Source: a virus
DNA: 21,455 bases
IMG/VR virus record: IMGVR_UViG_3300034108_001200
Coordinates: 1-21,455 of that record
Reading direction: 5' to 3' (one strand)
Shown: positions 1,134 through 18,325 of the stretch, one piece after another
Position numbering within the stretch: position 1 is the first letter of the stretch
Layout of the letters: each line of letters opens with the position of its first letter
Notes under the pieces: model-generated
Databases searched by the model: none
Seen by the model: only the letters and a program-made list of their open reading frames with translations
Told to the model about the DNA's origin: nothing
Program-made: the position numbers and the translations under genes

Positions 1134-1135
1134 TT

Positions 1136-2083
1136 ATGGAAAAAATTTTAATAGAAAATCCTTCGAGATTTGTCATATTCCCTATTCAGTATGATGACAT
1201 ATGGGAGTTTTATAAGATGCACCAAGCAGCTTTTTGGACAGCGGAGGAGGTTGACTTAACAAATGATATAAGAGATTGGGAAAACCTATCAGATAATGAA
1301 AAATACTTTGTGAAAAATGTTTTATCATTTTTTGCGGCATCTGATGGTATTGTGAATGAAAATTTGGCGGAAAACTTCTACAGAGAAGTACAATATCCTG
1401 AAGCTAAGTTCTTTTATGGATTTCAACTTATGATGGAAAATATTCACTCTTTAATGTATTCATTATTGATTGATACATATGTTTCTAATCCAAAAGAAAA
1501 AGATGATTGTTTCAACGCTATTGATAGATTGCCAGCAATTCAAAAGAAAGCTAATTGGGCTTTAGATTGGATTAAAAAAGCGTCTTTTCAAGAGAGATTA
1601 GTGGCATTTGTTGCGGTTGAAGGTATTTTCTTTTCAGGTTCTTTCTGTTCAATATTTTGGTTAAAATCAAGAGGGATAATGCAGGGTTTATGTAATGCTA
1701 ATTCGTTAATTTTCAAAGACGAAAACTTACATTGTGATTTTGCAATTCATTTGTTAAATAACCACGTTGAAAATAAACCTAGTGAAAAGAAAATAAAAGA
1801 AATTTTATTGTCTGCACTTGAAATAGAAAAAGAATTCATTACAGAATCATTACCAGTATCGTTAATAGGTATGAATCAGAATTTAATGAAACAATATTTA
1901 GAATTTGTTGTAGATGGTTTATTGATTAAATTAGGATGTTCAAAACATTTTAATGTAGAACAACCATTTAAATTTATGGAACAGATTGCGGTTGAAACAA
2001 AAGGTAACTTTTTTGAATCAAGAACTATGGAGTATCAAAAAGCCAAACTAAACGAAAAATTGTCATTTACGGATGAATTTTAA
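1136..2083 (+). CDS. nrdB: Class I ribonucleotide reductase, small (R2, radical-generating) subunit
   Basis: NrdB houses the dinuclear metal site and tyrosyl radical that NrdA uses to turn ribonucleotides into deoxyribonucleotides. The 315 residues are full length for the shorter R2 proteins. Metal ligands are all visible by family position: D40 (AEEVD), E101 and H104 (ENIH), E162 ([10 protein letters not shown]), E196 and H199 (DENLH). The radical tyrosine is Y108 (ENIHSLMY), four residues after H104 as in eukaryotic-type R2. The C-terminus SFTDEF resembles the short tail that docks R2 on R1. The sequence style ([26 protein letters not shown]) is the eukaryote-like class Ia type common in large phages. 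The ATG starts 2 bases after the helicase stop and there is no clear Shine-Dalgarno. All catalytic residues are present, so it should be active. Confidence 0.95.
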
Positions 2084-2094
2084 TATATAAGAAT

Positions 2095-4512
2095 ATGTCA
2101 CTAAAAATAAAAAAAAGAAGTGGGGATGAGGTATCATTTAACCCACAAAAAATATACCAAAGAATAAAAAGGTCTTGTAAAGGTCTTAATGTTAATTCAG
2201 ATGAAATTTTCATTAAAGTAATAACTTCAGTACCTGTTGAGGGTGAAATTACTACAAAAGAATTAGATAAATTAATTTATGAGATTTCGGCGGCATACAC
2301 TGGTAGTCACCATGATTATTCAAGATTGGCATCAAGTGTTGCAATATCATCATATCACAAAGAAACTAATCCAAGTTTCTCTGAAACAATCATATTGTTA
2401 CATTCTGAAGGTGTTATAAATGATGAATTGGTTAATATTATCAAATCATATGGTGAGAAAAATATAGATGATGTTATAAATCATGATAATGATTATAATT
2501 TTGATTATTTTGCTTGGCGTTCTTTAGTTGAGATGTACCTTTTAAAACTACCTAATGGTAGAGTAATTGAAAGACCTCAACATATGTACATGAGAGTTGC
2601 CTTATGGGTAACAAAATCATTTGATGAAGCGGTTGAATATTATAATTCATTGTCAAATCAATTAATATCTCCTGCAACACCAATTATGATAAATGCGGGT
2701 ACTAAGGTACCACAATTAGCTTCTTGTGTTTTACATTATAATGATTCGGATTCAAGAAATGGGTTACTAAATACTTTAAATGATATATCAACATATTCTT
2801 CTGATGCTGCGGGTATTGGTTTATGTATGTCAAATATTAGAAGTAAGGAAAGTAGAATTAAAACATCGGGAGGATTTGCCGGTGGTCTTTTAAGATATTT
2901 GAAGATTGTTAATGAATCGTTAAGATTTTTTAATCAACAAGGAAGAAGACCTGGAAGTGCGGCAATTTACATTGAACCTTGGCATAAAGATATTATTGAC
3001 CTGTTAGAAATTAAAAAGAATACTGGTGCAGAAGAACTAAGAGCACGTGATTTATTTACTGCGTTATGGATACCTGATAATTTCATGAATGCTGTTAGGA
3101 ATAATGATGATTGGTATCTTTTTTGTCCAAATGATATTATTAAATCTGGTATAAAACCATTACAAGAATGTTATGGTGAAGAATATGAAAAAAATTACAA
3201 TAAAGCGATTGAATTAGGTATTGGTAAAAAAGTTAAAGCTCAAGACATTTGGAGTAAAATTATTGAATCTCAAATTGAGACAGGTGTTCCATATTTGGCA
3301 GCTAAAGACCATGCTAATAGAAAAACAAATCACCAAAATATCGGTGTTATAAAACAATCTAATCTTTGTATTGAAATCTTTCAATATACAGATGAAACAA
3401 CAACTGCGATATGTACATTATCCTCAATGGTATTGAAGAATTTTATTCAAAATGGTGTATTTAATCACGAGTTATTATATAAAGAGGTTAGAAAAGTTGT
3501 TAGAGGTTTAAATAAAGTAATCGATATCAATAGTTATTCAACTGAGAAAGGTAGAAAAGGTGGGTTGGAACAAAGAGCAATTGCTATTGGAACTCAGGGT
3601 CTTGCAGATGTATTTTATTTGTTGGATTTAGTTTTCACATCTGATGAAGCTAAAAAATTAAATAAAGAAATTTTTGAAACCATCTATTTCGCAGCGATTT
3701 CTGAAAGTTGTTCACTTTGTAAATCTGAAGAATACAAACCATATAAATTCTTCAATGACTCACCTATGTCGGAAGGTGTATTTCAATTTGACATGTGGGG
3801 ACTTAAAGAGGAAGATTTATCAAGTATATGGGATTGGAAGTCTTTAAAAGAAGAAGTTAAGGATTATGGTGTTTGTAATTCTTTATTCACCGCACAAATG
3901 CCTGTTGCAAGTTCTGCTAAGATTACAGGGTCTTATGAAATGACAGAACCTGCTCATTCGGCGATTTTCAATAGAAGAGTTGTTGGAGGTGAGATTATGA
4001 TTGTAAATAAGTACTTAATTAACGATTTTGAAAAGATTGGTATTTGGTGTGAAGATTTGAAAAATGAAATTATTTTAAATGAAGGTTCTATTCAAAATAT
4101 AAATTTTAACAATTACTTAGATATTGAAGATAAACAATACAATAAAAAAGTTAAACGGACAGAACATTTAATTGAAAAATATAAGACCATTTGGGAGATA
4201 TCACAAAAAGAATTGATTAACATGGCGGCTGATAGAGCACCATTTATTGACCAATCACAATCAATGAACATTTATATGGGTAATCCAACTCTATCTAAGA
4301 TATCTTCAGCTCATTTTCACGGATGGGAAAAAGGTTTAAAAACATTGAGTTATTATGTGAGGACTAAAGCGATATCTACAGGTGCTAAACATTTGGCGGT
4401 TGATATTTCAAAAATAGAAAAACCAAAACCAACTCCTGAACCATCAAAACCAGATATTGTATTATCAAAACCAACCGATTCACCATTTGAATGTTTTGGT
4501 TGTTCATCATAA
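2095..4512 (+). CDS. nrdA: Class I ribonucleotide reductase, large (R1, catalytic) subunit
   Basis: NrdA binds ribonucleotide substrate and allosteric effectors and performs the reduction with NrdB. The 805 residues are complete. An N-terminal ATP-cone (about residues 3-90, starting KIKKRSGDEVSF) suggests dATP activity control. The catalytic barrel shows C211 (LASCVLH) and C440 (AICTLSS), the active-site redox pair; N423, C425 and E427 (SNLCIE), with C425 as the thiyl radical; and Y753-Y754 (LSYYVRT) of the radical-transfer path. The C-terminal tail, after a proline-rich linker (about 775-798), ends ECFGCSS; C800 and C803 form the shuttle pair that re-reduces the active site. It follows nrdB by 11 bases, the reverse of the usual A-then-B order. 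The reductant (thioredoxin or glutaredoxin) is not in the window. A strong terminator follows. Confidence 0.96.
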   Translation: MSLKIKKRSGDEVSFNPQKIYQRIKRSCKGLNVNSDEIFIKVITSVPVEGEITTKELDKLIYEISAAYTGSHHDYSRLASSVAISSYHKETNPSFSETIILLHSEGVINDELVNIIKSYGEKNIDDVINHDNDYNFDYFAWRSLVEMYLLKLPNGRVIERPQHMYMRVALWVTKSFDEAVEYYNSLSNQLISPATPIMINAGTKVPQLASCVLHYNDSDSRNGLLNTLNDISTYSSDAAGIGLCMSNIRSKESRIKTSGGFAGGLLRYLKIVNESLRFFNQQGRRPGSAAIYIEPWHKDIIDLLEIKKNTGAEELRARDLFTALWIPDNFMNAVRNNDDWYLFCPNDIIKSGIKPLQECYGEEYEKNYNKAIELGIGKKVKAQDIWSKIIESQIETGVPYLAAKDHANRKTNHQNIGVIKQSNLCIEIFQYTDETTTAICTLSSMVLKNFIQNGVFNHELLYKEVRKVVRGLNKVIDINSYSTEKGRKGGLEQRAIAIGTQGLADVFYLLDLVFTSDEAKKLNKEIFETIYFAAISESCSLCKSEEYKPYKFFNDSPMSEGVFQFDMWGLKEEDLSSIWDWKSLKEEVKDYGVCNSLFTAQMPVASSAKITGSYEMTEPAHSAIFNRRVVGGEIMIVNKYLINDFEKIGIWCEDLKNEIILNEGSIQNINFNNYLDIEDKQYNKKVKRTEHLIEKYKTIWEISQKELINMAADRAPFIDQSQSMNIYMGNPTLSKISSAHFHGWEKGLKTLSYYVRTKAISTGAKHLAVDISKIEKPKPTPEPSKPDIVLSKPTDSPFECFGCSS

Positions 4513-4568: not shown

Positions 4569-4625
4569 ATGAGTAACATAATACAAGAAGAAATACAAAG
4601 AATTCGTCAGATGATGTTATCTGAA
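4569..4625 (+). other. Possible capsid-targeting / prohead-protease-cleaved N-terminal peptide
   Basis: Codons 1-19 of the flavoprotein encode an amphipathic charged helix ending in L17-S18-E19. T4-type prohead proteases (gp21) cut after (L or I)-x-E; both I5-Q6-E7 and L17-S18-E19 fit, and cutting after E19 would release the peptide just ahead of the enzyme domain. In T4, short N-terminal peptides of this kind direct internal proteins into the prohead. The match is by pattern only; the protease gene is not in the window. Confidence 0.4.
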
Positions 4626-5351
4626 GAAATGGTTCAGACAGGTGCTTGGAAGAATCTTAAAGAAACATTAGACATTCTCAAACAAAAAGAAAATGTTTTG
4701 TTATTAAGTTGTTCCAATAGATATAATTGGGATGAAGAAAATATTGATACACCAAAGTCAAAGATTCTTGCAGTTTATTTGAAAGAAGAATTGGGGGATA
4801 AAGCTAAATTTATTGATGTTACAGAGTTAACAATACATCCTTGCGAAGGAAATGTGTCTAGAAAAGAAGGTAATAGTTGTGGAATTAAGAAAGCGTTATT
4901 AAAAGACGATAAAAAGAATCCATCAGGATATCATAGATGTTGGTGTAGTTTAAACAATAAAAATGATGAATTGTGGAAAATATCTAAGGAATTATTTGAA
5001 TCTGATGCTGTTGTGTTTTTCTCTTCTGTTAGATGGGGACAATCAAACATGTATTATCAAAATTTAATTGAGAGATTAACTTGGATTGAAAATAGACATA
5101 CAACTTTAGGTGAGAGTAATATTGTTGAAGGTATTGAAACTGGGTTTATTTGTGTAGGTCAGAATTGGAATGGTGAGAATGTGACCGAAACACAAAAAAA
5201 AGTACATAAATTTTTTGGTTTTAAACCAAATGATAAATTATATTGGAATTGGCAATACACAAAAAACGCTAATGACGAATCTAAAGAATCTTACAAAAAA
5301 GCGTTTCCGAAGTTTATAAAAGATACGAGATTAGACGAATACGAAGAATGA
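4569..5351 (+). CDS. Flavodoxin-fold flavoprotein, NAD(P)H-dependent FMN reductase-like, with possible capsid-targeting N-terminus
   Basis: The 260 residues have two parts. Residues 1-20 form a short charged helix (IIQEEIQRIRQMM) followed by LSEE, unlike the rest and resembling a phage capsid-targeting peptide. Residues about 41-240 look like a flavodoxin-like NAD(P)H:FMN oxidoreductase: a first strand and phosphate-binding loop VLLLSCSNR (43-51), then a SSVRWGQSNMYYQNLIERL segment (152-170) matching the flavin-contacting loop and helix of FMN reductase or iron-sulfur flavoprotein families. Cysteines C92, C104, C124 and C126 lie between these and could bind a metal cluster or form disulfides, but the spacing is not a classic ferredoxin motif. 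It is the first gene after the terminator and overlaps the next gene by ATGA. Substrate unknown; a redox role in the cell or in the injected contents is inference. Confidence 0.7.
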   Translation: MSNIIQEEIQRIRQMMLSEEMVQTGAWKNLKETLDILKQKENVLLLSCSNRYNWDEENIDTPKSKILAVYLKEELGDKAKFIDVTELTIHPCEGNVSRKEGNSCGIKKALLKDDKKNPSGYHRCWCSLNNKNDELWKISKELFESDAVVFFSSVRWGQSNMYYQNLIERLTWIENRHTTLGESNIVEGIETGFICVGQNWNGENVTETQKKVHKFFGFKPNDKLYWNWQYTKNANDESKESYKKAFPKFIKDTRLDEYEE

Positions 5352-5926
5352 TATTACAAACAGACTTAATACCACATGAAGAATTTCACAAAGGAATTTG
5401 GTTATCAAATGAACAAGTTCCTTGGTATTTTTTTGTGAAAAAAGAAAGGGATTTCGAATTACCAAATAATGAAGAATTCTATGAAACATTAGATGAAAAT
5501 TTACATCCTATTGTTAAAATGTTACATGAAAATGACATTATAACAACACCATCTTGTGCAGGACATTTCGAAAAAAAAAGTTATTATTCTGGTGTATATG
5601 ATTTATTAAATGATTTTAAAAAATCAATTAAAAATGAAGTTATTTTACATAATGATGAGAATGGTAAAAAATATAAATACAGGAATAAAAATTACGAATT
5701 ACCTTGGACTCGAAATGAGTTTTTAGATAGAATAATTGAATACCAAAAAAAAGGAGTTTTAGGAATCCAAGACAATGAAAAAAAAATATTTAATAATTTA
5801 AGACTAAATAATTTCAATAAAAAACATAATAACGGGGTAACTTTATTACTTATTAATTCAGAAACCCCTAAAGATTGTCATAATAATTGGAAATCAATAC
5901 ATAGACAATTAAATCGTATTGTTTAA
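5348..5926 (+). CDS. Unrecognised 192-residue protein with an SCAGH motif
   Basis: I do not recognise the function. The 192 residues are soluble and rich in Lys, Asn and Glu. The most distinctive part is LHPIVKMLHENDIITTPSCAG, ending TPSCAGHF (about residues 67-74). A Ser-Cys-x-Gly-His sequence after a helix with a strand-like ITT resembles a motif seen in assorted small phage proteins and, more distantly, the SCSGR of TYW3-type tRNA-modifying enzymes; this does not prove relation. The C-terminal half ends with a predicted strand GVTLLLINS and CHNNWKSIHRQL. No signal peptide or membrane segment is visible. Its ATG overlaps the stop of the flavoprotein gene (ATGA), implying coupled translation and perhaps a shared task. 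Confidence 0.75.
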   Translation: MILQTDLIPHEEFHKGIWLSNEQVPWYFFVKKERDFELPNNEEFYETLDENLHPIVKMLHENDIITTPSCAGHFEKKSYYSGVYDLLNDFKKSIKNEVILHNDENGKKYKYRNKNYELPWTRNEFLDRIIEYQKKGVLGIQDNEKKIFNNLRLNNFNKKHNNGVTLLLINSETPKDCHNNWKSIHRQLNRIV

Positions 5927-5945: not shown

Positions 5946-5952
5946 TATTTAT
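5946..5952 (+). promoter_or_regulatory. Candidate phage promoter element TATTTAT, upstream of the gp25-like gene
   Basis: TATTTAT lies in the 31-base gap before the baseplate genes, again with exactly 5 bases between motif and ATG (ATG at 5958), the same spacing as at 4557-4563. The motif abuts an in-frame TTG (5952), which is therefore probably promoter sequence rather than the start codon. Confidence 0.42.
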
Positions 5953-5957
5953 TGAAT

Positions 5958-6416
5958 ATGGGACAAGGTACTACATATGGAATTAATTTTCCTTTTAGAG
6001 ATTCATATAATGGAAATTATTTTGATTTATCTGAGAATAATGATGACGAAGTAAGAAGTGCTTTAATTCATTTATTATTAACCAGAAAAGGTACAAGATA
6101 TTATTTACCTGATTTTGGAACAAGACTTTATGAATATATTTTTGAACCTATGGATGGTCCTACGTTTTCTGAGATTGAATCGGAAATAAGGGATTCTGTA
6201 AGTGAATACCTACCAAATTTAACAATAACTAGTATTTCAGTGACAGACGCATCAATGGGGGAGGAAGATAAAGGAACATATATCACTGAAAATGATGATA
6301 GAGTTTTTAGAGTACCAAATATTTCTGAAAAAGAACATACAGCAAAAGTAAGAATTGATTATATTATTACCGATAATACATTCAATGAGAGTGATTTTGT
6401 AATTATTAATATTTAA
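5958..6416 (+). CDS. 25: Baseplate wedge protein, GPW/gp25 family
   Basis: Gp25 (gpW in P2, TssE in type VI secretion) sits next to the baseplate hub and helps nucleate the sheath. The 152-residue product is close to the family length (T4 gp25 is 132). Seen: an N-terminal GINFPFR segment; a helix EVRSALIHLLLTRKGTR (31-47) followed by the signature YYLPDFGTRLYEYIFEP (48-64), matching the family pattern of a Gly-x-Arg then Pro-x-Phe-Gly; and a C-terminal strand AKVRIDYII. An in-frame TTG at 5952 would add two residues, but ATG 5958 (MGQGTTYG) is preferred. The gene ends TAATAG (tandem stops) and the gp6-like gene begins 5 bases later, the W-then-J order typical of contractile tails. Confidence 0.9.
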   Translation: MGQGTTYGINFPFRDSYNGNYFDLSENNDDEVRSALIHLLLTRKGTRYYLPDFGTRLYEYIFEPMDGPTFSEIESEIRDSVSEYLPNLTITSISVTDASMGEEDKGTYITENDDRVFRVPNISEKEHTAKVRIDYIITDNTFNESDFVIINI

Positions 6417-6421
6417 TAGTA

Positions 6422-8260
6422 ATGGCGAATAAAAAAATATCATATACAACCCGAGATTTCCAACAAATTAGGACTGAGTTAATTAATTTTACTCGAACAT
6501 ACTATCCTGATTTAGTTCAAAACTTTAATGACGCATCCGTATTCTCAGCATTAATTGATTTAAATGCTGCGGTTACTGATAATTTACAATTCAATATAGA
6601 TAGAAGTATTCAGGAAACTGTACTACAATATGCACAACAAAGGTCTTCAATTTATAACATAGCAAGAACCTATGGATTAAAAGTGCCGGGACAGAGACCA
6701 TCAGTATCTTTGGTTGATTTTTCTATTACAGTACCAGCTTTTGGAGATAAAGAAGATTTAAGATATTGTGGTATTTTAAGAAGAGGTTCACAAGTTAATG
6801 GTGCTGGTCAAGTTTTTGAAACTGTTTATGATATTGATTTTGCTTCAGCAATAAACGCTGAGGGTTTTCCGAACAGATTAAAAATACCTAACTTCGATGC
6901 AAATAATAATTTATTAAATTATACAATTGTTAAAAGAGAAACAGTTGTAAATGGTATTACAAAGGTTTTTAAGAAGGTTATAACCGCAAATGATGTTAGA
7001 CCCTTCTATGAATTATTCTTACCTGAAAAGAATGTTTTAGGGGTAACCAGTGTGTTATTGAAAGATGGTACACAATACGCAAACATACCATCGGTACAAG
7101 AATTTTTGGGGCCTGATAACAGATGGTATGAGGTAAAGGCGTTAATTGACGATAGAGTTTTTGTTGAAGACCCAACAAAGGTTTCTGACCAACCTGGTAT
7201 TAAAGTTGGAAAATATCTATTAGTTAATACTAAATTCATAACGGAATATACACCTGAAGGTTTCCTAAAAATGACTTTTGGAGGTGGGACACAATCTGCT
7301 GACGAACAATTAAGGGAGTTTGCGAGAAATGGATTTAAATTAGATTTATACAAATATTCAAATAATTTAGCGTTAGGTAGCACATTGAAAGCGAATACTA
7401 CTTTATTTGTTCAATATAGAATTGGTGGTGGTACATCAAGTAACTTGGGTGTAGGTGTTATAACACAGATTGGTACGGTATCATTTACAGTTAACGGACC
7501 TTCTGACACTACAAATACAAGTGTGGTTAATTCATTGAGATGTAACAACGTAACAGCGGCAATTGGAGGTGCAAATAATCCAACAACGGAAGAAGTTAGG
7601 AGTTTTGTATCATTTAACTTTGCGGCACAAAATAGAGCGGTGACGGTTAGTGATTATGAATCAATAATTAGAACAATGCCATCACAGTATGGTGCACCTG
7701 CTAAAGTGTCTATTTTAGAAGAGAATAACAAAATAAAAATAAAGATGTTAGCTTATGATGATACTGGTAGTTTAACAGAAATCGTTTCTAACACTTTGAA
7801 AAATAATGTTGCGAATTATCTATCAAATTATCGAATGATTAATGACTATATCTCGATTGAAAGTGCTAACGTTATTGATTTAGGTTTCAATATTGATGTT
7901 GTTTTGGATAATTCACAAAACCAAGGTGCGGTAATTTCACAAATAATTGATATAACATCAGATTTTATGGACCCTGCGAATAGAGAAATGGGTGAAAATG
8001 TTAATATATCTGAGTTAAGAAGATTAATCCAAAGTGAAAATGGTGTAGTGTCATTATCTGATATTCAAGTGTTTAACAAAGTTGGAGGACAATACTCTTC
8101 TTCACAAACTTCTCAAAGATATTTGGATTCAACAACAAAACAAATCGAATTAATTGATGATACAATTTTTGCGGAGCCAAGTCAAACATATCAAGTAAGA
8201 TTTCCAAGTAAGGATATCAATGTCCGAGTTAAAAATATCAAGACAGTTAATTTCTCTTGA
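6422..8260 (+). CDS. 6: Baseplate wedge protein, T4 gp6 / P2 gpJ-like
   Basis: Gp6 forms the inner baseplate ring with gp7 and gp25. The 612 residues are near T4 gp6 (660). Seen: an N-terminal region typical of the family, YTTRDFQQIRTELINFTRTY then a helical stretch DLNAAVTDNLQFNIDRSIQE followed by RSSIYNIARTYGLKVPGQRPS; a beta-rich middle; and a C-terminal baseplate-J-like portion with FAAQNRAVTVSDYESIIRT (about 402-420), a repeated strand-helix unit, and NISELRRLIQSENGVVSLSDIQVF near the end. The position immediately after gp25 supports the call. It is followed by a 75-base gap with a possible hairpin, so it may end a unit. Confidence 0.88.
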   Translation: MANKKISYTTRDFQQIRTELINFTRTYYPDLVQNFNDASVFSALIDLNAAVTDNLQFNIDRSIQETVLQYAQQRSSIYNIARTYGLKVPGQRPSVSLVDFSITVPAFGDKEDLRYCGILRRGSQVNGAGQVFETVYDIDFASAINAEGFPNRLKIPNFDANNNLLNYTIVKRETVVNGITKVFKKVITANDVRPFYELFLPEKNVLGVTSVLLKDGTQYANIPSVQEFLGPDNRWYEVKALIDDRVFVEDPTKVSDQPGIKVGKYLLVNTKFITEYTPEGFLKMTFGGGTQSADEQLREFARNGFKLDLYKYSNNLALGSTLKANTTLFVQYRIGGGTSSNLGVGVITQIGTVSFTVNGPSDTTNTSVVNSLRCNNVTAAIGGANNPTTEEVRSFVSFNFAAQNRAVTVSDYESIIRTMPSQYGAPAKVSILEENNKIKIKMLAYDDTGSLTEIVSNTLKNNVANYLSNYRMINDYISIESANVIDLGFNIDVVLDNSQNQGAVISQIIDITSDFMDPANREMGENVNISELRRLIQSENGVVSLSDIQVFNKVGGQYSSSQTSQRYLDSTTKQIELIDDTIFAEPSQTYQVRFPSKDINVRVKNIKTVNFS

Positions 8261-8335: not shown

Positions 8336-11300
8336 ATGTCCAAATCATATAGAATAAGAACCCAAGTTGGTGTCGATAAGTCAATAAAAGTACAATTAGA
8401 CCAAGATTTTGAGTTTCTCGAGATATTATCTTTAAAAATACTACAGAGTCAAATATACACAAGACCATGTTCAGATTATGGTGTTGTAATAGGTAGAGTT
8501 TCTGTAAATGATGGATTTGGTTTACCAAACTGTAAGGTATCTATTTTTATACCATTAACAGATGAGGATGCGGTAAATCCAATTTTAAGTGATTTATATC
8601 CATATAGAACTTTATCAGATTTTAACGAGGATGGTTATCGATATAATTTATTACCGTATAGACCATCATATAGTGCGCACATACCTACAGGTACGTTCTT
8701 CACTCGTAAAGACGTATTAACGGATACTACTTTAATTCAAGTTTTTGACAAGTATTACAAATATAATGCGGTAACTAACTCAAGTGGTGATTTTATGATT
8801 TTTGGTGTACCTGTTGGTACACAAACAATCCACTTAGATGTTGATTTATCAGACATTGGTGATTTTTCATTATCTCCACAAGATTTAATTAGAATGGGTA
8901 GAGCAACCGAATCCCAAGTTGCTGGTGTTAATTTTAAATCTTCACCAAATTTAGCAAATCTTCCTCAAATTGTGACTATAAATAAAACAATAGAGGTTGA
9001 ACCATTATGGGGTCAACCTGAAGTTTGTAATTTAGGAATCACTAGAACGGACTTTGATTTGTCTTCAGAGGCGGATATTTTAATTGAGCCAACATCTATT
9101 TTTATGGGGTCAATTATATCGGCAAATGATACACAATTTATAAAAAAAGGATGTAAACCAAAATTAAAACAAGGTCATTTATGTGATTTGGTTGCAGGTC
9201 CTGGAGAAATATTAGCAATTAGACAAACAATTTTTCAAGATGAGTATGGTAGACCTGTTTTAGAACAAGTTGATTTAGACCAAGGAGGGCAAGTTATTGA
9301 CGATAATGGAGCTTGGTTATTAGACCTACCAATGAATTTAGATTATTTAATAACAAATGAATTTGGCGAACAAGTTTTATCAGATGACCCAAAAAAAGGA
9401 ATTCCAACCAAAGCAAAATATCGTTTTAAAATAAAATGGAATCAATCACCAAGTTTATCTGAAACTGTTAGAAGAGGTTATTTCTTAGTTCCTAATATTA
9501 AGGAGCATGGACATAATCCATTAGAATCGATACAAAATAATTTAAGTAATATTCATGCTTCATATGCTTTTAGTTTAGATTGGAATGATTATGGAAATAC
9601 TGGTACAACAGAAGGTCTACAAATGATTCAAGATGGTATAGATTGTGTAGACACTTTTTATCCTATGATTTATAATAAAGTGTATACTGTATCACAAATG
9701 CTCGACAAATTTAGAAAAGGTGTTGCAGCGAGAAGAATGACAGGTATAAAACACATTTTGGATAGTGAATGTCAAAGTGAAAATAATAGATTCCCAACTA
9801 ATGACGCATTTTATAGATGGGATTTTATATATCTTTTATTCCTTATTGCGATGTTTATTTTTAAACCTGTAATATATGCTTTATTAGTTGTTTCACACGT
9901 TGTCGCATTTTTACTTAGATATATTTTAGGACCTATTTTAGGGGTAATTGCGGGTATCATATTAGTAATTGTTTATGCTGTTTGTTGGATTGTTAGAGTT
10001 TTATCTTTTGGTGCTGTTAGTTGTGATTCTGTTGGAGAATCGTTTAAATATGTGAAAAAAATATTTGATTTATGGAAAAACTTTGCATTTATCAAAGTAC
10101 CTAATTTACCATACCCTGATTGTGAGATGTGTTCCTGCAAAGATGGTGAAACATTAGATTGGGGGGGAGAATCAAACCCTGCGAATGCTATTACTGACGA
10201 AGCGGTTGCTGATTCTGGAATTTATTCAATTTTGACACCTTATTACAATGTTAATAATTATATTTTACCTGATGAACCACTATCAATACCTTTGAGTACT
10301 AATTTCGCGGGACAATCAATTGCAACACCACCAAATCCACAATCATCAACAGGTATGGCTCCTCAGATGAAAAGATATACAACATCAGGTGGTAATGATA
10401 GAAAAATTTTTACAACAAGTTTAACTGAACAAGAAAGATTAAATTTATTTAATGTTAAGGCGAAATATTTTGATACACCCACAACTCCAACAAATCCGGG
10501 AGGTGGTGTAAATAGAATAAAAGTTAGATTTGGTTCAGATTTAAATGCTAGTAGTTTACCATTAACATCTTTAATGCCAGGTACAAATTGTCACTTGGAT
10601 AATGTTTTAGTATTATCTTTACAACCTGACCAATTATCTGAATTTACTCCGGGTAAATTGGTTTGTTTTCAAGATTTTGAACAGTCAAAAGATATAAATT
10701 TAACAGGTGTTATAAATTATAATCAATTTTTTACAAAGAGTATAACGGGCACTTCTGTTTATAATGGAGTTTCAACTTTACAAATTACTTACGCAAATCC
10801 TAATAACCCAAACATTGGTGTACCAGTGAATTATTTTATTTCAGGTGAAAGTACAAATGAATTATACCATAAATTTCCTATGGATATTGAGTATTTTCAG
10901 GTTATTACTGCGATGACTTATAATGTATTTTCAGGTACATGTGTATCAAATCCTTATTCACTTAGAGATAGATTTTTGGGTAATGATATGAGATTTTATC
11001 AATTAAGATTAGAATCTACTTGGACTGATACATATTTGAGAAATCCAATTGATTTAACAGAAGAAGGTTCAAATCAAGTTATTGTATTTTTGGTTAGAGG
11101 TGTTGACCCAAATTCAGTAAGAAATAAATGTGAATATGACCTTAGTATGTTATTCGGTCATTCATCTCCAAATGGTAGTGTTGTTGTTAGTGGAGATTAT
11201 AAACTAAATCACCCAATAAAACCCGGATTACAAAGTATTGGGCATGAAGTTTCTGCCGGCTCTTTTCAGTACGATACTCCAACATATCCTGGAGGTTCTC

Positions 11301-13537
11301 AACCAATATATTATAATTCCTTTCATTTTCAACCAACTATTGGTGGAAATGCTGGGTTTTCTGCTTTTACATCTGATTTACCAAAATATTATTCAAGATT
11401 GGATAGTACTACTTCAGGTTTAACTTTTCAACCTGAATCCCAATTTTATTGCCCTACAGTACAAACTTTTTGTCTTAGTTCTCCACTTAGATTAAAAACC
11501 GCAATTCCATCAGTTTTTGCGGGAACATATCCCCCACTTAATCAAATGAATGGATTTCAATATGAGTGGCAGTTTGCACTAAATGCTTGTGGTGGTAGAG
11601 ATGTATATAGTTCTAATAGTGTTAGTTCACTAGGAACTGCGGGTAAATTTAGAGGTTATTTAGATAATGAGAATGTAGAAGGTGGTTCAGTCATGTATTA
11701 TTATTATGACGAAATTTATCCTAATACTCCGGGATGTCCTGATGTTGATGCTAAAGGTATTGGTTCTTATTATGCGCCATCTTATTATAATACATCATAT
11801 TCATTAAATTACAATTTAACCGCCGGTGTGAATTCAAGAAAAATAGTTATGAGGTCTGATAGATTACCTACCTCATCAACTGTTAGTTTGAATTTATCGA
11901 ATAGTTTTCCATTACATACGAATAAAAAATTCTCAATATTCTTACTAACTGATGATGGTGTACCATTACCAACAGAAGGTATTGCTAACAATGTTCCTTC
12001 AAGTGGTAATGCTACTTTGCTTGATGTATCAGGTGAAACACAAAACTACACTCAAAGATTGTTTGAAACATTCGATTGTGCGGGTATGGTACCACTTGGA
12101 TGTTATTATACAAATCCTGCACCAAATAATACTGAAATACAAGTATATACTATTGACCAAAATAATGATTGTAGTACGGCGCCAAGTGGAACAAAGTACA
12201 TGCAAAATGGTTGTTATGTTTGGGTTACCAATCCATTAGTTAGTTTACCTAAAGACTTATTATTACTGACTGAATGGATATCAAGATTACAAATTACATT
12301 TGGTGCGTGTCGTGATGTATGGTCACATATGTTTGCGAATAATTGGATTAATGGTACATTATATATGTTCCCATTTAAACAAGAGAGATATTTTACAAGT
12401 CCTTTTGCTGACCCACCAGTCCCTCCTAATAGTCCTTACTCTGTTTATTGTACTGATGTTATGTATTTACATTATACAACAAATAGTTTTTATTATCGTA
12501 GTACGCCATATAACTTTGCGAATGATTCTTTTATTGGGTTAACGGCTCCCGTTTCATTAATCAATACACCATTTGGTGGAAATAAGAGAAACTTATTATT
12601 TCCAACCACAATAATGGATTTAGGACCTAGAACATATTATTTACAAGAGATAGTAATGTCCGATGATTATGATGGATATGTGGTAAACAAACTTAATCCA
12701 ACAACATATAGTGATGTTGAGGAAGTTTTAAATTTGTTTATTATAAGTCGATTGGTTAATGAAAGTTTCTTAAAACAATTTTTTGAACCCGGTGGAACAA
12801 GTATATACGCTTATTTTAGTAGAGGTGAAGCAATACCGGGAATCAATTTTATTAGAATGGTTGATGCTGATTATGCTCAATCAATATCAGTAGCTTCAGA
12901 GTTGGGTGTTGCACCATTTGAAGCGGAAAATTACCCAAGTTATCCAAATCAAGACCCAATATTTTATAATGGAGCTGATGCTAGTGATGGTGTTATTGGT
13001 ATATTTTGGTCGTCTAATACTCAAATAAGAGATTTTATTACACCTAAAAGGACAATTATTGACCCAACAGGAAATCCTTTAGACATTTGTACATTTAACT
13101 ATTTTAAAAATTTCTCGCAACGAGTACCATTTTATCAATGGGATATAAAAAACAATTCTAGCGGTGATTCAATATTTGGTTCACAAAAAAATGATTGGGT
13201 AAGTGAAGATGACGTTGTAGGAGGTACATCATTTTTTAGTAGAGAATATCAAAATATGGATAGAGTTAACCAATCATCAAGATATTTTAGAACTAACAAC
13301 ATAAATCAATCTTTATTTTTTAAAGGATATATATTTTCAGTAACACCCGGAACGGCTACAACTGAAACTGACCTATCGGCTCAAGTTTCAACATGGAGTT
13401 TAAATCCGGCGCCTTATGATAGAGCGGTTACAGTTGGTGCTCCTTTTCATTTTTATTTTGGATTGAAAAGAGGAAAAAGTGCTTGGGATAGATTTGCTAG
13501 AAAATGGATTGGTTTTGAAAATATAACAGAAGATTAA
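8336..13537 (+). CDS. Very large baseplate/tail structural protein with internal membrane-type helices (unassigned family)
   Basis: At 1733 residues this is the largest gene of the window, in the baseplate cluster after the gp6-like gene; I cannot assign a T4 number. Seen: an N-terminal region with Ig-like or carboxypeptidase-regulatory-like character (GVVIGRVSVNDGFGLPNCKVSIFIP, about 47-72; SSGDFMIFGVPVGTQTI, about 148-164); a second similar segment around 290-380; then W495 followed by an almost uninterrupted hydrophobic block 497-561 long enough for two or three transmembrane helices; then a Cys cluster C596-x2-C599-x-C601; a Pro/Thr/Gly linker near 712-724 (TPTTPTNPGGG); and about 1000 residues of beta-rich, Tyr- and Asn-rich sequence typical of fibres or wedges. 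It ends HFYFGLKRGKSAWDRF near residue 1720. The frame is intact. A structural role is strongly supported by context; a membrane-contact role is inference. Confidence 0.75.
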   Translation: MSKSYRIRTQVGVDKSIKVQLDQDFEFLEILSLKILQSQIYTRPCSDYGVVIGRVSVNDGFGLPNCKVSIFIPLTDEDAVNPILSDLYPYRTLSDFNEDGYRYNLLPYRPSYSAHIPTGTFFTRKDVLTDTTLIQVFDKYYKYNAVTNSSGDFMIFGVPVGTQTIHLDVDLSDIGDFSLSPQDLIRMGRATESQVAGVNFKSSPNLANLPQIVTINKTIEVEPLWGQPEVCNLGITRTDFDLSSEADILIEPTSIFMGSIISANDTQFIKKGCKPKLKQGHLCDLVAGPGEILAIRQTIFQDEYGRPVLEQVDLDQGGQVIDDNGAWLLDLPMNLDYLITNEFGEQVLSDDPKKGIPTKAKYRFKIKWNQSPSLSETVRRGYFLVPNIKEHGHNPLESIQNNLSNIHASYAFSLDWNDYGNTGTTEGLQMIQDGIDCVDTFYPMIYNKVYTVSQMLDKFRKGVAARRMTGIKHILDSECQSENNRFPTNDAFYRWDFIYLLFLIAMFIFKPVIYALLVVSHVVAFLLRYILGPILGVIAGIILVIVYAVCWIVRVLSFGAVSCDSVGESFKYVKKIFDLWKNFAFIKVPNLPYPDCEMCSCKDGETLDWGGESNPANAITDEAVADSGIYSILTPYYNVNNYILPDEPLSIPLSTNFAGQSIATPPNPQSSTGMAPQMKRYTTSGGNDRKIFTTSLTEQERLNLFNVKAKYFDTPTTPTNPGGGVNRIKVRFGSDLNASSLPLTSLMPGTNCHLDNVLVLSLQPDQLSEFTPGKLVCFQDFEQSKDINLTGVINYNQFFTKSITGTSVYNGVSTLQITYANPNNPNIGVPVNYFISGESTNELYHKFPMDIEYFQVITAMTYNVFSGTCVSNPYSLRDRFLGNDMRFYQLRLESTWTDTYLRNPIDLTEEGSNQVIVFLVRGVDPNSVRNKCEYDLSMLFGHSSPNGSVVVSGDYKLNHPIKPGLQSIGHEVSAGSFQYDTPTYPGGSQPIYYNSFHFQPTIGGNAGFSAFTSDLPKYYSRLDSTTSGLTFQPESQFYCPTVQTFCLSSPLRLKTAIPSVFAGTYPPLNQMNGFQYEWQFALNACGGRDVYSSNSVSSLGTAGKFRGYLDNENVEGGSVMYYYYDEIYPNTPGCPDVDAKGIGSYYAPSYYNTSYSLNYNLTAGVNSRKIVMRSDRLPTSSTVSLNLSNSFPLHTNKKFSIFLLTDDGVPLPTEGIANNVPSSGNATLLDVSGETQNYTQRLFETFDCAGMVPLGCYYTNPAPNNTEIQVYTIDQNNDCSTAPSGTKYMQNGCYVWVTNPLVSLPKDLLLLTEWISRLQITFGACRDVWSHMFANNWINGTLYMFPFKQERYFTSPFADPPVPPNSPYSVYCTDVMYLHYTTNSFYYRSTPYNFANDSFIGLTAPVSLINTPFGGNKRNLLFPTTIMDLGPRTYYLQEIVMSDDYDGYVVNKLNPTTYSDVEEVLNLFIISRLVNESFLKQFFEPGGTSIYAYFSRGEAIPGINFIRMVDADYAQSISVASELGVAPFEAENYPSYPNQDPIFYNGADASDGVIGIFWSSNTQIRDFITPKRTIIDPTGNPLDICTFNYFKNFSQRVPFYQWDIKNNSSGDSIFGSQKNDWVSEDDVVGGTSFFSREYQNMDRVNQSSRYFRTNNINQSLFFKGYIFSVTPGTATTETDLSAQVSTWSLNPAPYDRAVTVGAPFHFYFGLKRGKSAWDRFARKWIGFENITED
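9824..10018 (+). other. Hydrophobic membrane-type block inside the 1733-residue protein (residues 497-561)
   Basis: The encoded segment begins FIYLLFLIAMFIF, passes K510-P511, continues VIYALLVVSHVVAFLLRYIL, passes G532-P533 and ends with ILGVIAGIILVIVYAVCWIV and VLSFG. Only K510, H521, R528 and R554 are charged or ionisable. The pattern fits two or three helices with short turns at Lys-Pro and Gly-Pro. Flanking sequence is soluble, and a Cys cluster follows 35 residues later. Confidence 0.75.
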
Positions 13538-13538
13538 T

Positions 13539-15332
13539 ATGAGTTACGATTATAATATAAGAGTTGTTTTAGGTTCATTAAGGTACAAATCGGCACCTGA
13601 CACTAATCTCATGTTTGAAGTACCATTAATTCAAACATCAAAAGAAATAATTGAATTTGAGAGAAGTATTGATGTTGGATTAGAACAAGTGTATGATGAT
13701 GAAAGACAAAGGTCTGATATTTTCAGACCGACAGGTAAATTTATGGTCTTGTTTGAAAATGGATTAGCGGGTCATAGTCCTTATGTTCCTTTTGAAAATA
13801 ATCTTTATTATGTTAATCCTGAACTCGCAGCCGATTTAGAGTGTGGAACTAATGCGTCACCTGTTGAGTGGACGGGGTTACCTCAATATAACGAATTTGA
13901 TTTTATTAGAAGTGATTATAGTGTTACAGGTTATACTCAACCACCTAATGAACATATATTATTTTCACCGCAAAGTGCTTCGACATATAATTGGAATTTT
14001 TTTATAAGTTATGCTTATGAAAATGATTATAATAAACCGATGCAAATTTTCTTTAAAGAAGACCCCAATAATCCTTTAAATTTTACTAGCGGTGATGGTA
14101 TTCCTTATATAATTGAAAACACAACACAAAATGGTAATTCTACAATATCTTTAAAGTGTAGTGTAAAACATGGTGTAAATCTTGGTGAATTTGTTATTTT
14201 AAAAGATTCTGCGGGTAATACTGTAACATACAGAGACCAATCACTATTCCAAGTTTATTCACTAGGTCTTGAAACTTATGAAAGTAACGAATATGTTATA
14301 AATTTATTCAATATCGGATACACAGGAACGACATTCAACAACTTGAACAAAGGTACACTTAAAAGAGTTATTTTAGATTCTAACTCGGCAGATACTATAT
14401 CAAAATATTATGTTAAAAAAAATAAAATTATAACAGATGTTAATGACGCTATATTAGTAAATGCAGGATTTGAACAGAACATCTTTGGGATAAAGAAAAA
14501 ATATGAAAGTAGTGGATTTACACCAAATAAAATCGCTAGAGTTTCACTAAAAGAAGGTGCTCAATCATATACATTATCTTTTAATACTGATATTTTAATT
14601 AACTCTCTTAGAGATAATCAAATGAGACCTATAACAGAGTTATTTTTTACTGTTATATGGAAAGGATATTTTGGTTGGACTGATGGGGTTTTGAAACAAG
14701 GTTGGGAATTCAATTTACCATTAAATCCGACAAATAATTTACCGACAGCGTGGTGGAATTCTATTTCAAATCCAAATTGTAAAACAAATTTTCCTTTTGC
14801 GACATATTGTACAACACAAGGTGGGGTAACAAATTTTAGATATGTTCAAACTTTACCTAAAGACTCAATTATTGATGGTGATTTTTGTGAGTGGAATGAT
14901 TATGAGCAAAGAGAAAGAGTTATTTCGGATTTATATCATAAATTTAATTTCAATTTACAATGGTTTACAGTCTTGGTTCCAACAGAATTACCACCATTTT
15001 ATCCGTATTATCAAAATCCGTATGGGTATTATTACAAACCACACCATCCTATAACATTAAGAGTTTATTCGGACTATATAGAAAACGGAACACCTGGAGA
15101 AATAGAAGGTATTCCTGATTATTCATATTATTCACAAACTAATAATCAATTTATATGGAGAGACATTTATTCTTATGGTTTTGTGGATGGTAGAAATTTA
15201 GGGGTAAATTATCCTTTTTTGAATGGTACTCATTACCCGTTTAAAAACATAATTTTTAGAATTATTCCTGAAGGAACTAATTATATAGAACAAACAATAA
15301 TCCCAGACCCGTTAATTGATTTTTGTGAATAA
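13539..15332 (+). CDS. Baseplate/tail structural protein, 597 residues (unassigned)
   Basis: Begins 1 base after the stop of the 1733-residue gene, so it is probably co-translated with it. The sequence is beta-rich, with many Tyr, Asn and Pro and no membrane segment or signal peptide. Notable: an N-terminal strand NIRVVLGSLRYKS; a charged stretch YDDERQRSDIFRPTG; a segment IYGF-free but Trp-rich in the middle (FFTVIWKGYFGWTDG, about 372-386); and a strikingly aromatic PPFYPYYQNPYGYYYKPHH (485-503). Position after gp6 would allow a T4 gp8 equivalent, but T4 gp8 is only 334 residues and I see no convincing shared motif. A structural role is inferred from neighbours and composition. It ends TAATAA; the next gene starts inside its final codons. 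Confidence 0.7.
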   Translation: MSYDYNIRVVLGSLRYKSAPDTNLMFEVPLIQTSKEIIEFERSIDVGLEQVYDDERQRSDIFRPTGKFMVLFENGLAGHSPYVPFENNLYYVNPELAADLECGTNASPVEWTGLPQYNEFDFIRSDYSVTGYTQPPNEHILFSPQSASTYNWNFFISYAYENDYNKPMQIFFKEDPNNPLNFTSGDGIPYIIENTTQNGNSTISLKCSVKHGVNLGEFVILKDSAGNTVTYRDQSLFQVYSLGLETYESNEYVINLFNIGYTGTTFNNLNKGTLKRVILDSNSADTISKYYVKKNKIITDVNDAILVNAGFEQNIFGIKKKYESSGFTPNKIARVSLKEGAQSYTLSFNTDILINSLRDNQMRPITELFFTVIWKGYFGWTDGVLKQGWEFNLPLNPTNNLPTAWWNSISNPNCKTNFPFATYCTTQGGVTNFRYVQTLPKDSIIDGDFCEWNDYEQRERVISDLYHKFNFNLQWFTVLVPTELPPFYPYYQNPYGYYYKPHHPITLRVYSDYIENGTPGEIEGIPDYSYYSQTNNQFIWRDIYSYGFVDGRNLGVNYPFLNGTHYPFKNIIFRIIPEGTNYIEQTIIPDPLIDFCE

Positions 15333-16209
15333 TAAATTTAGACTTTTAATACCGCAGAATGATGAATACATCAACATTCCTATCGAAATCAAATGGGATT
15401 TTGAAGGGAGAGATGAGAGTATTGATTTATATGAAGAAGATGTTTTAAGAGAGGTTATCGGTATTGCAAAAGATTTTGAAATTGCGAGATTCTCACACGT
15501 ACCTTATCAATACAATAACACAATAGATTGTAATTTTCAACAACAACCATATTATGCAACAAGATTACAATATCAATTCTTTTTCTTTAGTGGTGACCCG
15601 ATATCAGTAACCACATCAACATCTGCAAATTGGGTGTCTAGTTATATGGATATGCCAAATTCTAATCCTTGGTCAGGTTTTTCTGCAACTCAATTGTATT
15701 ATTTTGATAACCCTTTTACAAAGTCATTTTTTAAATTAGACTTTTACGATAGTAATACCGCAACAACACAAACGAATTATTTTACGGTAATATTACCTGT
15801 TCAACAAGGTCTAACAGAAACTGCGGTAATATCGAGTTTAAGACCACCTGTCCAAGTAAAAATTCCAACTATGAATTTAGATTTTGTTGGTGACAAGGAA
15901 GGATTTTTCCTATATTGGTTGAGAAAAAAAGATTTTTTAGATATTGATACTTTTTATATGTCTGCAAAGTTTTTTGATGGTAGAAAAGGTGAATTTATAA
16001 GAATGCTAACCAGACCACAGTCATCATTTCCAAGTAAGTTTCAATTTGACCCGTCAATATATTTTTATTATAAAGTTGAATTGGATTACGATTCTCACAC
16101 ATATAAAATATTTGATATATTAACAAATGAACCTCGAGGGGAATACGTACCATTTCCAACGAATCAATATAAACCCGTATCTTGGTATGAATTTATAAAC
16201 CCTGAATAA
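15325..16209 (+). CDS. Baseplate/tail structural protein, about 294 residues (unassigned; non-ATG start)
   Basis: No ATG is available near the 5' end. Two candidates exist: GTG at 15325 (M-NNKFRLLIPQ, 8-base overlap with the previous gene) and TTG at 15316 (3 residues longer). I prefer GTG because it gives the shorter overlap; neither has a Shine-Dalgarno. The product has a strand-rich N-terminus (FRLLIPQNDEYINIPIEIKW), an aromatic segment YATRLQYQFFFFSGD, a loop containing SVTTSTSANWVSSY, and a C-terminal domain with EGFFLYWLRKKDFLDIDTFY and YFYYKVELDYDSHTYKIF. No known enzyme motif or membrane span. The last base of its stop is the first base of the next ATG (TAATG). Structural role inferred from location between other tail genes. 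Confidence 0.68.
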   Translation: MNNKFRLLIPQNDEYINIPIEIKWDFEGRDESIDLYEEDVLREVIGIAKDFEIARFSHVPYQYNNTIDCNFQQQPYYATRLQYQFFFFSGDPISVTTSTSANWVSSYMDMPNSNPWSGFSATQLYYFDNPFTKSFFKLDFYDSNTATTQTNYFTVILPVQQGLTETAVISSLRPPVQVKIPTMNLDFVGDKEGFFLYWLRKKDFLDIDTFYMSAKFFDGRKGEFIRMLTRPQSSFPSKFQFDPSIYFYYKVELDYDSHTYKIFDILTNEPRGEYVPFPTNQYKPVSWYEFINPE

Positions 16210-17381
16210 TGGAACAAAGATGGTATCATATTAGAATATCACCTGAGAATGTTAATACAGTATTCAGGGTAAACTATGATTTGGGTACAAATACACCCAT
16301 TCCAATAGATGACCCTTGCTGTGATATTACTACAACTACAACAACTGGTAGGATAACAGGATTTACTTATGTATATTCATCAATGTCAGAAGTGGTTAGT
16401 GGTGGTACAAATGGAATATCTTTATTAACAGGATTAACAGTACCTATTTTATTGACTGAAAATACTGTAGATATTGGATATTACTCAGTTTTTGATGGTT
16501 ATATCTTACAGAAAGATACTATGATGAATTTTATCTTTTCAGGTTTTGGTAATTCAATTAATTTTACCAATACATCTGATAAAGAATTTAAAAAATATTT
16601 GGAGTTTTCTGATTATAAAATAGATTGGGGTGATGGAGTCATACAATATGTTAATAATACAACTCCTAATTTTTATTCGCACACTTACGCATACTCAAAT
16701 CCAACGGTATATACCATAACAATGTCAGGTATGAGTCCTTGGGGTTGGAATGTGTTAAAAAAAGATGTATATATTCCGATTACTGGTACAACAATAGATA
16801 ATCCAAATGGAAATGTTGTTTTCCATCCTATGGGTGGTAATTGGTCGGCAACACCAATATCTTATGATTATATTTTTTCAGGTGATTCTGAATGTATTTT
16901 ACCTGACCCATATTTTGATGATTTTGGACCAATACCATTTTATATAACAGGATATACTCAATCAACAATAAATGATTTGGAGGTTTATGGTCCTAAAAGT
17001 ACTTTGTTGGCGGGTAAGTATTTAATAGGTGTTCCTGTTACTGGTACATCAGGTGTTGTTGGTATAGTTTATGGTCCTTCACTTGATAATACTTATACAG
17101 CATATACAATAAATGATATTAATTATTATGATTTAAGTGATGGAAGAACTTTATTTGTTGTTGAAACTTCAGGATTAACTATAGATGATTTAGTATGTTC
17201 TGCAATTACAAAAAATGAAGTTTTATTAAATGTTATTGACGAACCACAAGTTCAGTCCAATGTTTACATAGAACGTGGAAAAAACTCAGCTTTAGAATCA
17301 GTTCAAAGACTAGGTGAAATTGATAATATTGGAGACTTGGAAAAATATGGTTACAAATTTTTTGTCATCATAAAAACATAA
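16209..17381 (+). CDS. Tail/baseplate protein with a PKD-like (Ig-fold) domain, 390 residues
   Basis: Linked to the previous gene by a TAATG overlap. N-terminal strands (RWYHIRISPENVNTVFRVNY) are followed by a CCD and a run of six Thr (about 41-46), probably a flexible linker. Residues about 100-185 look like a PKD domain: DWGDG at 139-143 and HTY at 158-160 followed by YTITMSG, the family's spaced signature (W-G-D-G, then H-x-Y, then a Y-T-(I/V)-T strand). PKD domains are Ig-fold modules common in surface-exposed and sugar-binding proteins, especially in Bacteroidota and their phages. The C-terminal half is Gly/Thr-rich, with VPVTGTSGVVGIVYG and an end VYIERGKNSALESVQRLGEI followed by YGYKFFVIIKT. 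Likely a peripheral baseplate or receptor-contacting component; the partner is unknown. Confidence 0.72.
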   Translation: MEQRWYHIRISPENVNTVFRVNYDLGTNTPIPIDDPCCDITTTTTTGRITGFTYVYSSMSEVVSGGTNGISLLTGLTVPILLTENTVDIGYYSVFDGYILQKDTMMNFIFSGFGNSINFTNTSDKEFKKYLEFSDYKIDWGDGVIQYVNNTTPNFYSHTYAYSNPTVYTITMSGMSPWGWNVLKKDVYIPITGTTIDNPNGNVVFHPMGGNWSATPISYDYIFSGDSECILPDPYFDDFGPIPFYITGYTQSTINDLEVYGPKSTLLAGKYLIGVPVTGTSGVVGIVYGPSLDNTYTAYTINDINYYDLSDGRTLFVVETSGLTIDDLVCSAITKNEVLLNVIDEPQVQSNVYIERGKNSALESVQRLGEIDNIGDLEKYGYKFFVIIKT

Positions 17382-17387
17382 AAATGA

Positions 17388-17394
17388 TATTTAT
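17388..17394 (+). promoter_or_regulatory. Candidate phage promoter element TATTTAT, upstream of the 301-residue gene
   Basis: TATTTAT within GATATTTATAGATA in the 38-base gap after the PKD protein, 25 bases before the ATG at 17420. The flanking GATATTTATA decamer is identical to that at 4555-4564, the longest match among the four copies. Confidence 0.45.
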
Positions 17395-17419
17395 AGATAA
17401 ACAGACAAAAAATTAAATA

Positions 17420-18325
17420 ATGGCAACAGCTAGTTACGGAACAATAAGACCGGCGGACGTGAGTCCTGAAGATATTGAGATAATTTTAAATTTCACCCCA
17501 TCAAGGGATGAAACTGATAATTTTGTGTTAACAAAATTAGATTCTCTCGCATTAATAAAACCATATTTTAATAATACATCAACAGGTGTTAATAGTGTTG
17601 AAATATTAGGGGGGTTATATAATTTAAGATTACCTGCTGACCAATTTAATAAAATAGGTATATACACATTATTTATAAGACCCGCTCAAATTAGATGTAC
17701 TATTTTGGATTGTGGTGTTTTATCTGCATTACCAAACGTTAGAGGATTAGTAATTGATTTAAATTCAGTCCCATCTCAATACAGAAATAAATTTGTTAAT
17801 CAAGGTTTGGTTGGTTTTAGAATTGAATATTTAAATACTGATGGTACTAAGATACCTAATTTTTTCAGAATTATAACATCATCGTTTTTCTGTGAACCTG
17901 TTGTTCAAAATTTAACAAACACTTCACAAAAAGCGATAAGGTATAGATATACTGATAATAATACTAATTTAATTTTCTGTACATTAACTCCTTCATCTGC
18001 ACCTACGAATAAACCAAATGCTATACCCTATATTGGTCAACCGAATCAAAATATAATAGTAACAAATACGTTTTTTAATCCAATAACATTGGATATTGAA
18101 ATTGCGGAACATGATTTCTCAACATTGGCAATTGCTCTTTATGGTAACCAAACTAAATCTATGGATGATGGTATTTACACAATTTACGATACCGCGAATA
18201 ACATCTACAGACAGTACAACTTGTATGAAATTAGAGACCAATTCAATAAGTTGTTATTTGAGGTTAGAGAAGATAGAGATAATAATATTGATTTCAGTAA
18301 AAGCTTTTCAAATATAACCCAATAA
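17420..18325 (+). CDS. Tail/baseplate structural protein, 301 residues (unassigned)
   Basis: First gene after a 38-base gap carrying a candidate promoter. The product starts ATASYGTIRPADVSPEDIEI and contains FTPSRDETDNFVLTKLD, a strand-rich centre (LGGLYNLRLPADQFNKIGIYTLFIRP, then TILDCGVLSALPNVRGLVIDL), and a hydrophilic C-terminus (QYNLYEIRDQFNKLLFEVREDRDNN). It has no membrane segment, signal peptide or enzyme motif that I can see. It overlaps the next gene by TAATG, which ties it to the gpI/gp7-like protein and suggests it may be a direct partner, such as a wedge accessory or a fibre connector. Family not recognised. Confidence 0.7.
   Translation: MATASYGTIRPADVSPEDIEIILNFTPSRDETDNFVLTKLDSLALIKPYFNNTSTGVNSVEILGGLYNLRLPADQFNKIGIYTLFIRPAQIRCTILDCGVLSALPNVRGLVIDLNSVPSQYRNKFVNQGLVGFRIEYLNTDGTKIPNFFRIITSSFFCEPVVQNLTNTSQKAIRYRYTDNNTNLIFCTLTPSSAPTNKPNAIPYIGQPNQNIIVTNTFFNPITLDIEIAEHDFSTLAIALYGNQTKSMDDGIYTIYDTANNIYRQYNLYEIRDQFNKLLFEVREDRDNNIDFSKSFSNITQ

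Follow-up and report, generated by a model that had tools for sequence, protein, structure and literature searches.

A conserved membrane-type hydrophobic block within a giant protein of a phage baseplate gene cluster

Why would a giant protein encoded among the baseplate genes of a phage carry a membrane-type hydrophobic block, and at which stage could such a block enter a membrane? To our knowledge, how the DNA of contractile-tailed phages passes the inner membrane, once the tube is through the outer envelope, is poorly resolved, and a baseplate-cluster protein with a conserved membrane module offers a concrete and testable part for this question. The window analysed here is the complete 21,455-base IMG/VR record IMGVR_UViG_3300034108_001200, whose products are a DnaB/RadA-like helicase, ribonucleotide reductase subunits, a gp25-like and a gp6-like protein, a giant protein of 1733 aa, four unknowns and a 1004-aa protein (Table 1).

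Table 1. Coordinates of the baseplate gene cluster and of the features of the giant protein in the window
Feature	Position	Strand	Remarks
gp25-like baseplate wedge protein	5952..6416	+	PF04965
gp6 / baseplate J-like wedge protein	6422..8260	+	family matches
Giant protein, 1733 aa, baseplate gene cluster	8336..13537	+	no Pfam/PHROG/PDB family
N-terminal part, residues 1-480	8336..9775	+	best conserved of family; predicted beta-sandwich (pilin / transthyretin-like) domains
Cys437, before block	9644..9646	+	154/155
Cys479, just before block	9770..9772	+	155/155
FPTND motif, residues 486-490, just upstream of block	9791..9805	+	P487 155/155
Hydrophobic membrane-type block, residues 497-561	9824..10018	+	hydropathy; kept in 158 distinct homologues
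His521, inside block	9896..9898	+	148/155 homologues
CxxCxC motif, Cys596, 599, 601, just after block	10121..10138	+	each 155/155 (set selected on C..[CY].C)
C-terminal part, residues 771-1733	10646..13534	+	beta-rich, no structural match
597-aa protein, no known family	13539..15332	+	syntenic in relatives
Three proteins (297, 390, 301 aa), no known family	15316..18325	+	syntenic in relatives
gp7 / gpI-like wedge candidate, 1004 aa	18325..21339	+	KxKGT motif also in the large candidate wedge proteins of phages immuto, Mel-JY01 and LR756508

Translation of positions 9824-10018 (+ strand) gives FIYLLFLIAMFIFKPVIYALLVVSHVVAFLLRYILGPILGVIAGIILVIVYAVCWIVRVLSFGAV, in frame within the single open reading frame 8336-13537. 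The residues D, E, N and Q are absent from the stretch, which has a single K, a single H and two R. Its Kyte-Doolittle (KD) mean over 65 residues reaches 2.23, the highest value among 5000 shuffled versions of the giant protein being 1.61, a result that confirms the nearly all-hydrophobic run first noticed by the sequence-only reading. The 19-mer KD maximum of the block (2.87) lies below the shuffle maximum (3.16), so that the 19-mer value alone is not decisive. On the Eisenberg scale (mean over 21 residues) the block scores 0.93, and the highest-scoring segment in the rest of the giant protein 0.43. Among the other window products, 19-residue KD maxima were at most 1.38 for the tail genes and 1.89 for NrdB, and in the tail module of a 109-kb relative (G002, locus L033) no other called ORF with a 19-mer KD of at least 1.8 was found, the ORF at 38144 being seen in part. 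The giant protein therefore appears to be the sole membrane-type product of the module.

Conservation of the block was assessed on homologues from viral contigs, where a search with the window protein gave seven loci; in each of three alignment-yielding scans at least 560 relatives were confirmed and 80 loci listed. The loci listed represent 162 distinct proteins, and 158 of them were long enough to assess. The search peptides lie outside the block; sampling favours sequences keeping those peptides and therefore should not favour presence of the block. All 158 assessable IMG/VR homologues among the matches listed carry the block, and the check for homologues lacking it, proposed along with the original observation, found none. 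For 157 of these 158 a 19-mer with KD of at least 2.0 lies within residues 400-760, the exception (L052) being a frame-broken gene in which the block sits in a fragment at a shifted place. Across the same 158 homologues the 19-mer KD of the block has a median of 2.68 at a median position of residue 517, compared with a median of 1.33 for the best 19-mer elsewhere, and any 19-mer of at least 1.6 outside the block was seen in 21.

The block is kept where homologue identity drops to about 36-45%, and it is held by purifying selection while being less conserved than its flanks (dN/dS of 0.18 and 0.14 respectively). Its length varies about three-fold, hydrophobic-window coverage ranging from 28 to 125 residues (median about 74). 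Of 708 amino-acid differences inside it, 470 replace one hydrophobic residue by another. In the hydrophobic core, D+E account for 0.9% and K+R for 2.2% of residues, and the helices are hydrophobic all round, without a consistent polar face. With conserved hydrophobic segments of bilayer-spanning length and no polar face, the block has the general sequence features of an integral membrane module.

In some contigs the giant gene is broken or incomplete. In L052 (2378-7491) it occupies two open frames of 284 and 1452 aa, by sequencing error or genuine frameshift. A 99% identical contig (L002, 5998-7584) ends inside the block and already differs there (FIYILFTIAMF vs FIYLLFLIAMF), and the near-identical contigs L003 and L007 likewise end within the giant gene.

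In every case an FPxND...FD motif precedes the block and a YPDCxxCxC motif follows it. Residue counts were taken from a profile alignment of 155 proteins chosen for the motif C..[CY].C, which is present in 155 of the 158; besides the positions given in Table 1, D496 (145/155) and P589 (150/155) are kept. The Lys-Pro and Gly-Pro turns described by the sequence-only reading are present in the window protein as K510-P511 and G532-P533, but they are not general, P511 occurring in 76 of 155 proteins and K510 being usually replaced. In the shortest forms (L006, L036 and L144) about 40 hydrophobic residues are followed nearly directly by LPxxxYPxCxxCxC, and longer forms have one to three extra hydrophobic helices on the C-terminal side of the conserved His. 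From the alignment, the invariant cysteines that flank the block suggest that its two ends may be fastened to each other, on the same side of the structure it enters.

Structure prediction with AlphaFold2 gave a mean pLDDT of 64.5 for residues 1-800 (58 homologues) and of 68.3 for the beta-rich residues 771-1733. The block itself was modelled, at a pLDDT of about 75-86, as one continuous helix (497-556) followed by shorter helices, in a monomer prediction that does not distinguish between a hairpin and a long helix within an oligomer. The proposed two-helix hairpin was thus not reproduced, the continuous helix being predicted with moderate confidence and covariation being weakly suggestive: at Neff of about 80 the top pairs between the two halves, for example 502-519 and 503-518, are compatible with a turn around residue 511, but the antidiagonal band is not prominent overall. 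A crude segment count of the block gave 1 to 6 segments, mostly 2-4, shifting with parameter choice. The conserved core of about 35-40 residues is probably a short helical hairpin.

The family to which the giant protein belongs has no Pfam, PHROG or PDB match. No match was obtained by tblastn of the whole protein and of the L004 N-terminal part against 50,697 phage records, no homologue was found in two genome-contig scans resting on few peptide patterns, and family profiles run against all of RM378 and about 35 kb each of immuto, Mel-JY01 and the LR756508 huge phage detected no giant-protein homologue. Searching the PDB by sequence and by fold yielded no convincing relative; the N-terminal part matched pilins, PA1324 and dioxygenases, which points to no more than beta-sandwich domains, and fold matches to pneumolysin and other toxins were low-score beta matches and were disregarded. 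In a viral structure library the sole family member is an uncharacterised 'Myoviridae sp. ctPuP5' protein (40% identity over 456 columns). The family marks this very common uncultivated phage group, throughout which the module occurs while being absent from the cultured relatives examined.

By gene position the giant protein follows the gp25 and gp6-like genes, as gp7 of T4 and gpI of P2 would, and precedes the gp7-like wedge gene. The earlier assignment to T4-type wedge proteins was not borne out, no similarity to known wedge proteins being detectable, and an identity with T4-type gp7 was rejected, the gp7-like features falling in the gene at 18325-21339. Family profiles of the giant protein found no match in the large candidate wedge proteins of immuto, Mel-JY01 and LR756508. 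It is the 1004-aa protein that these resemble, with significant phmmer hits for two of the three (E 4e-7 and 1e-4). The 1004-aa protein was missed by Pfam and PHROGs despite its KxKGT motif and is, on these sequence matches, likely the gp7/gpI-like wedge protein of the group. From its gene position we would guess the giant protein to be a baseplate or baseplate-associated protein, and from the same position we infer that it is present in the virion.

The relative G002 encodes a tail sheath (phrog_23, E 5e-53) and a tail tube (phrog_4542), and the group therefore consists of contractile-tailed phages. Among the best matches that gp6 and the helicase have in cultured phages are Flavobacterium phage immuto and Microcystis phage Mel-JY01, with 25-29% identity. 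The GC content of the window is 30% and a Shine-Dalgarno-like motif is absent at 9 of 10 gene starts examined; a Bacteroidota host is plausible. The gp23 and gp20 genes, by which a relation to the Far-T4 phages would be judged, both lie outside the window, and the only cultured Far-T4 member we know of is RM378.

Hydrophobic regions predicted to be membrane-associated are already known in tape measure proteins and in contractile-system components, and no universally conserved membrane-type block in a giant baseplate-cluster phage protein was found in the open-licence literature searched. In the tape measure protein of TP901-1, regions 390-460 and 591-679 have been proposed as chaperone binders, one of them being dispensable for infection (PMC5099701). 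Like the giant protein, it is a tail protein with one or two hydrophobic blocks, of 70-90 residues, predicted to span the membrane, but tape measures are long, coiled and built of repeats, whereas the giant protein is beta-rich, lies between gp6 and gp7 homologues and has one block bracketed by invariant cysteines. A tape measure identity was rejected, since long helical or coiled repeats are absent and the sole long helix of the beta-rich AlphaFold2 models is the block. The prePAAR effectors of type VI secretion systems (T6SS) are likewise parts of a contractile machine with short, poorly conserved transmembrane helices, which sit at the spike tip and are shielded before delivery by Eag chaperones (PMC7773334). 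Their helices are N-terminal to a toxin, unlike the block internal to 1733 aa, and a prePAAR/Eag assignment was discarded, neither the giant protein nor nine neighbouring proteins giving a Pfam match to PAAR or Eag (PF08786). Cis13, a tail-fibre-like protein of a thylakoid-anchored contractile system, holds the membrane via a transmembrane helix whose deletion frees the system (PMC8894136); it too is a tail-module protein with a transmembrane segment, but this is a single C-terminal helix in a trimeric fibre of a cell-resident machine, in contrast with the internal block, of 30-110 residues, of a phage protein. T4 gp7 and P2 gpI resemble the giant protein as large proteins of the wedge cluster after gp6, and differ from it in showing no sequence similarity and in that the KGT motif is found in the separate gene 18325-21339.

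Could the block have arisen or be kept for reasons that have nothing to do with a membrane? Shuffling can produce a 19-mer this hydrophobic, but the 65-residue run beyond all 5000 shuffles, the in-frame presence in 158 homologues and the dN/dS value make a chance run, a frameshift or a fused neighbouring gene next to inconceivable; the last had already been doubted by the sequence-only reading, in agreement with the one open frame and the conserved sequence on both sides in homologues. It would also be distinctly unlikely that the block merely recruits a chaperone or partner during assembly and ends packed in protein without ever entering a membrane. The TP901-1 precedent favours such a site (PMC5099701), but a fixed binding surface should keep its sequence and length, while the block drifts more than its flanks, varies about three-fold in length and shows no consistent polar face. 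Still less probable is a buried oligomer core, in which a helix bundle would serve as a plug or structural pin in the baseplate or tail lumen: the long predicted helix 497-556 would suit a bundle, and the sequence drift, the large variation in length (probably in helix number) and the all-round hydrophobicity speak against it. Since a drift in sequence and length during which hydrophobicity is kept is easier to reconcile with lipid-facing helices than with a fixed protein interface, insertion of the block into a membrane at some stage is favoured, and we hold it to be probable. Our reading of the sequences is accordingly that the block represents a genuine membrane-type module of a clade-specific giant protein in a baseplate gene cluster, supported by its presence in every assessable homologue among the matches listed, purifying selection, drift, the invariant cysteines and the wedge-gene context.

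The stage of insertion is less clear-cut. The signal recognition particle would be expected to bind a stretch so hydrophobic, and the nascent giant protein could enter the inner membrane of the infected cell from the cytoplasm, baseplates being built there and freed at lysis. This assembly anchor would be the default behaviour of a nascent chain with such segments; both flanks are rich in K+R (0.127 per residue N-terminally and 0.180 C-terminally, the latter a 2.4-fold enrichment, against 0.076 overall), as the positive-inside rule predicts for cytoplasmic flanks, and Cis13 provides a precedent (PMC8894136). The net charge of the N-terminal flank, on the other hand, is negative in 66 homologues and positive in 4, a free virion would have to extract many transmembrane helices at lysis, and the Cis13 machine stays in its own cell; we rate assembly anchoring as rather unlikely. 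The use that we tentatively prefer, while giving it somewhat less than an even chance, is entry of the block into the host inner membrane on contraction; insertion at infection would account for the retention of the module in a tail protein, and the prePAAR effectors provide a precedent for it (PMC7773334). The core hairpin, extended by further helices in many relatives, would have its two ends probably clamped together by Cys437 and 479 and Cys596, 599 and 601, through a metal or disulphides, and in the virion the module would most likely be shielded by oligomerisation or partner proteins. Upon tail contraction it would enter the host inner membrane and there anchor the tail or help to open a path for the DNA. 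In a more elaborate form of this proposal, possible but somewhat doubtful, several shielded transmembrane hairpins or four-helix units would insert on contraction and form a docking ring or part of a DNA channel. Against the preferred contraction-linked insertion stand the single continuous helix predicted by AlphaFold2 in place of a hairpin, the varying count of membrane segments, the positive C-terminal flank, which also fits insertion from the cytoplasmic side during assembly, and the TP901-1 tape measure, whose hydrophobic regions seem to serve chaperone binding or assembly instead of entering a membrane (PMC5099701), a precedent that speaks against the assembly anchor as well. The module may be how the viruses of this group breach or dock to the bacterial membrane.

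Further observations were made on the neighbouring genes of the window and of its relatives. The tail sheath protein of G002 is 1193 aa long (L096:2242-5820; G002 21242-24820), the T4 sheath protein being much shorter, and its C-terminal part alone matches known sheath families; directly after the G002 tail tube gene lies a 526-aa homing endonuclease (phrog_3339, E 1e-113; L096:7393-8970; G002 26393-27970). In the window, two genes at 4569-5926, one of 260 aa with a weak match to NADPH-dependent FMN reductase and one of 192 aa without a family, lie between nrdA and gp25, and locus L004 is without them at that place. In L006 (IMGVR_UViG_3300016472_000493, 3-3538) the NrdA gene is fractured: its N-terminal part closes with the N-terminal half of an intein, the ORF that follows separately starts GIY-YIG-like and has a domain of the I-HmuI NUMOD-like type, and the next ORF opens with the intein C-terminal half and continues NrdA. 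As judged from these ORFs, the arrangement looks like a split intein whose halves are separated by a homing endonuclease.
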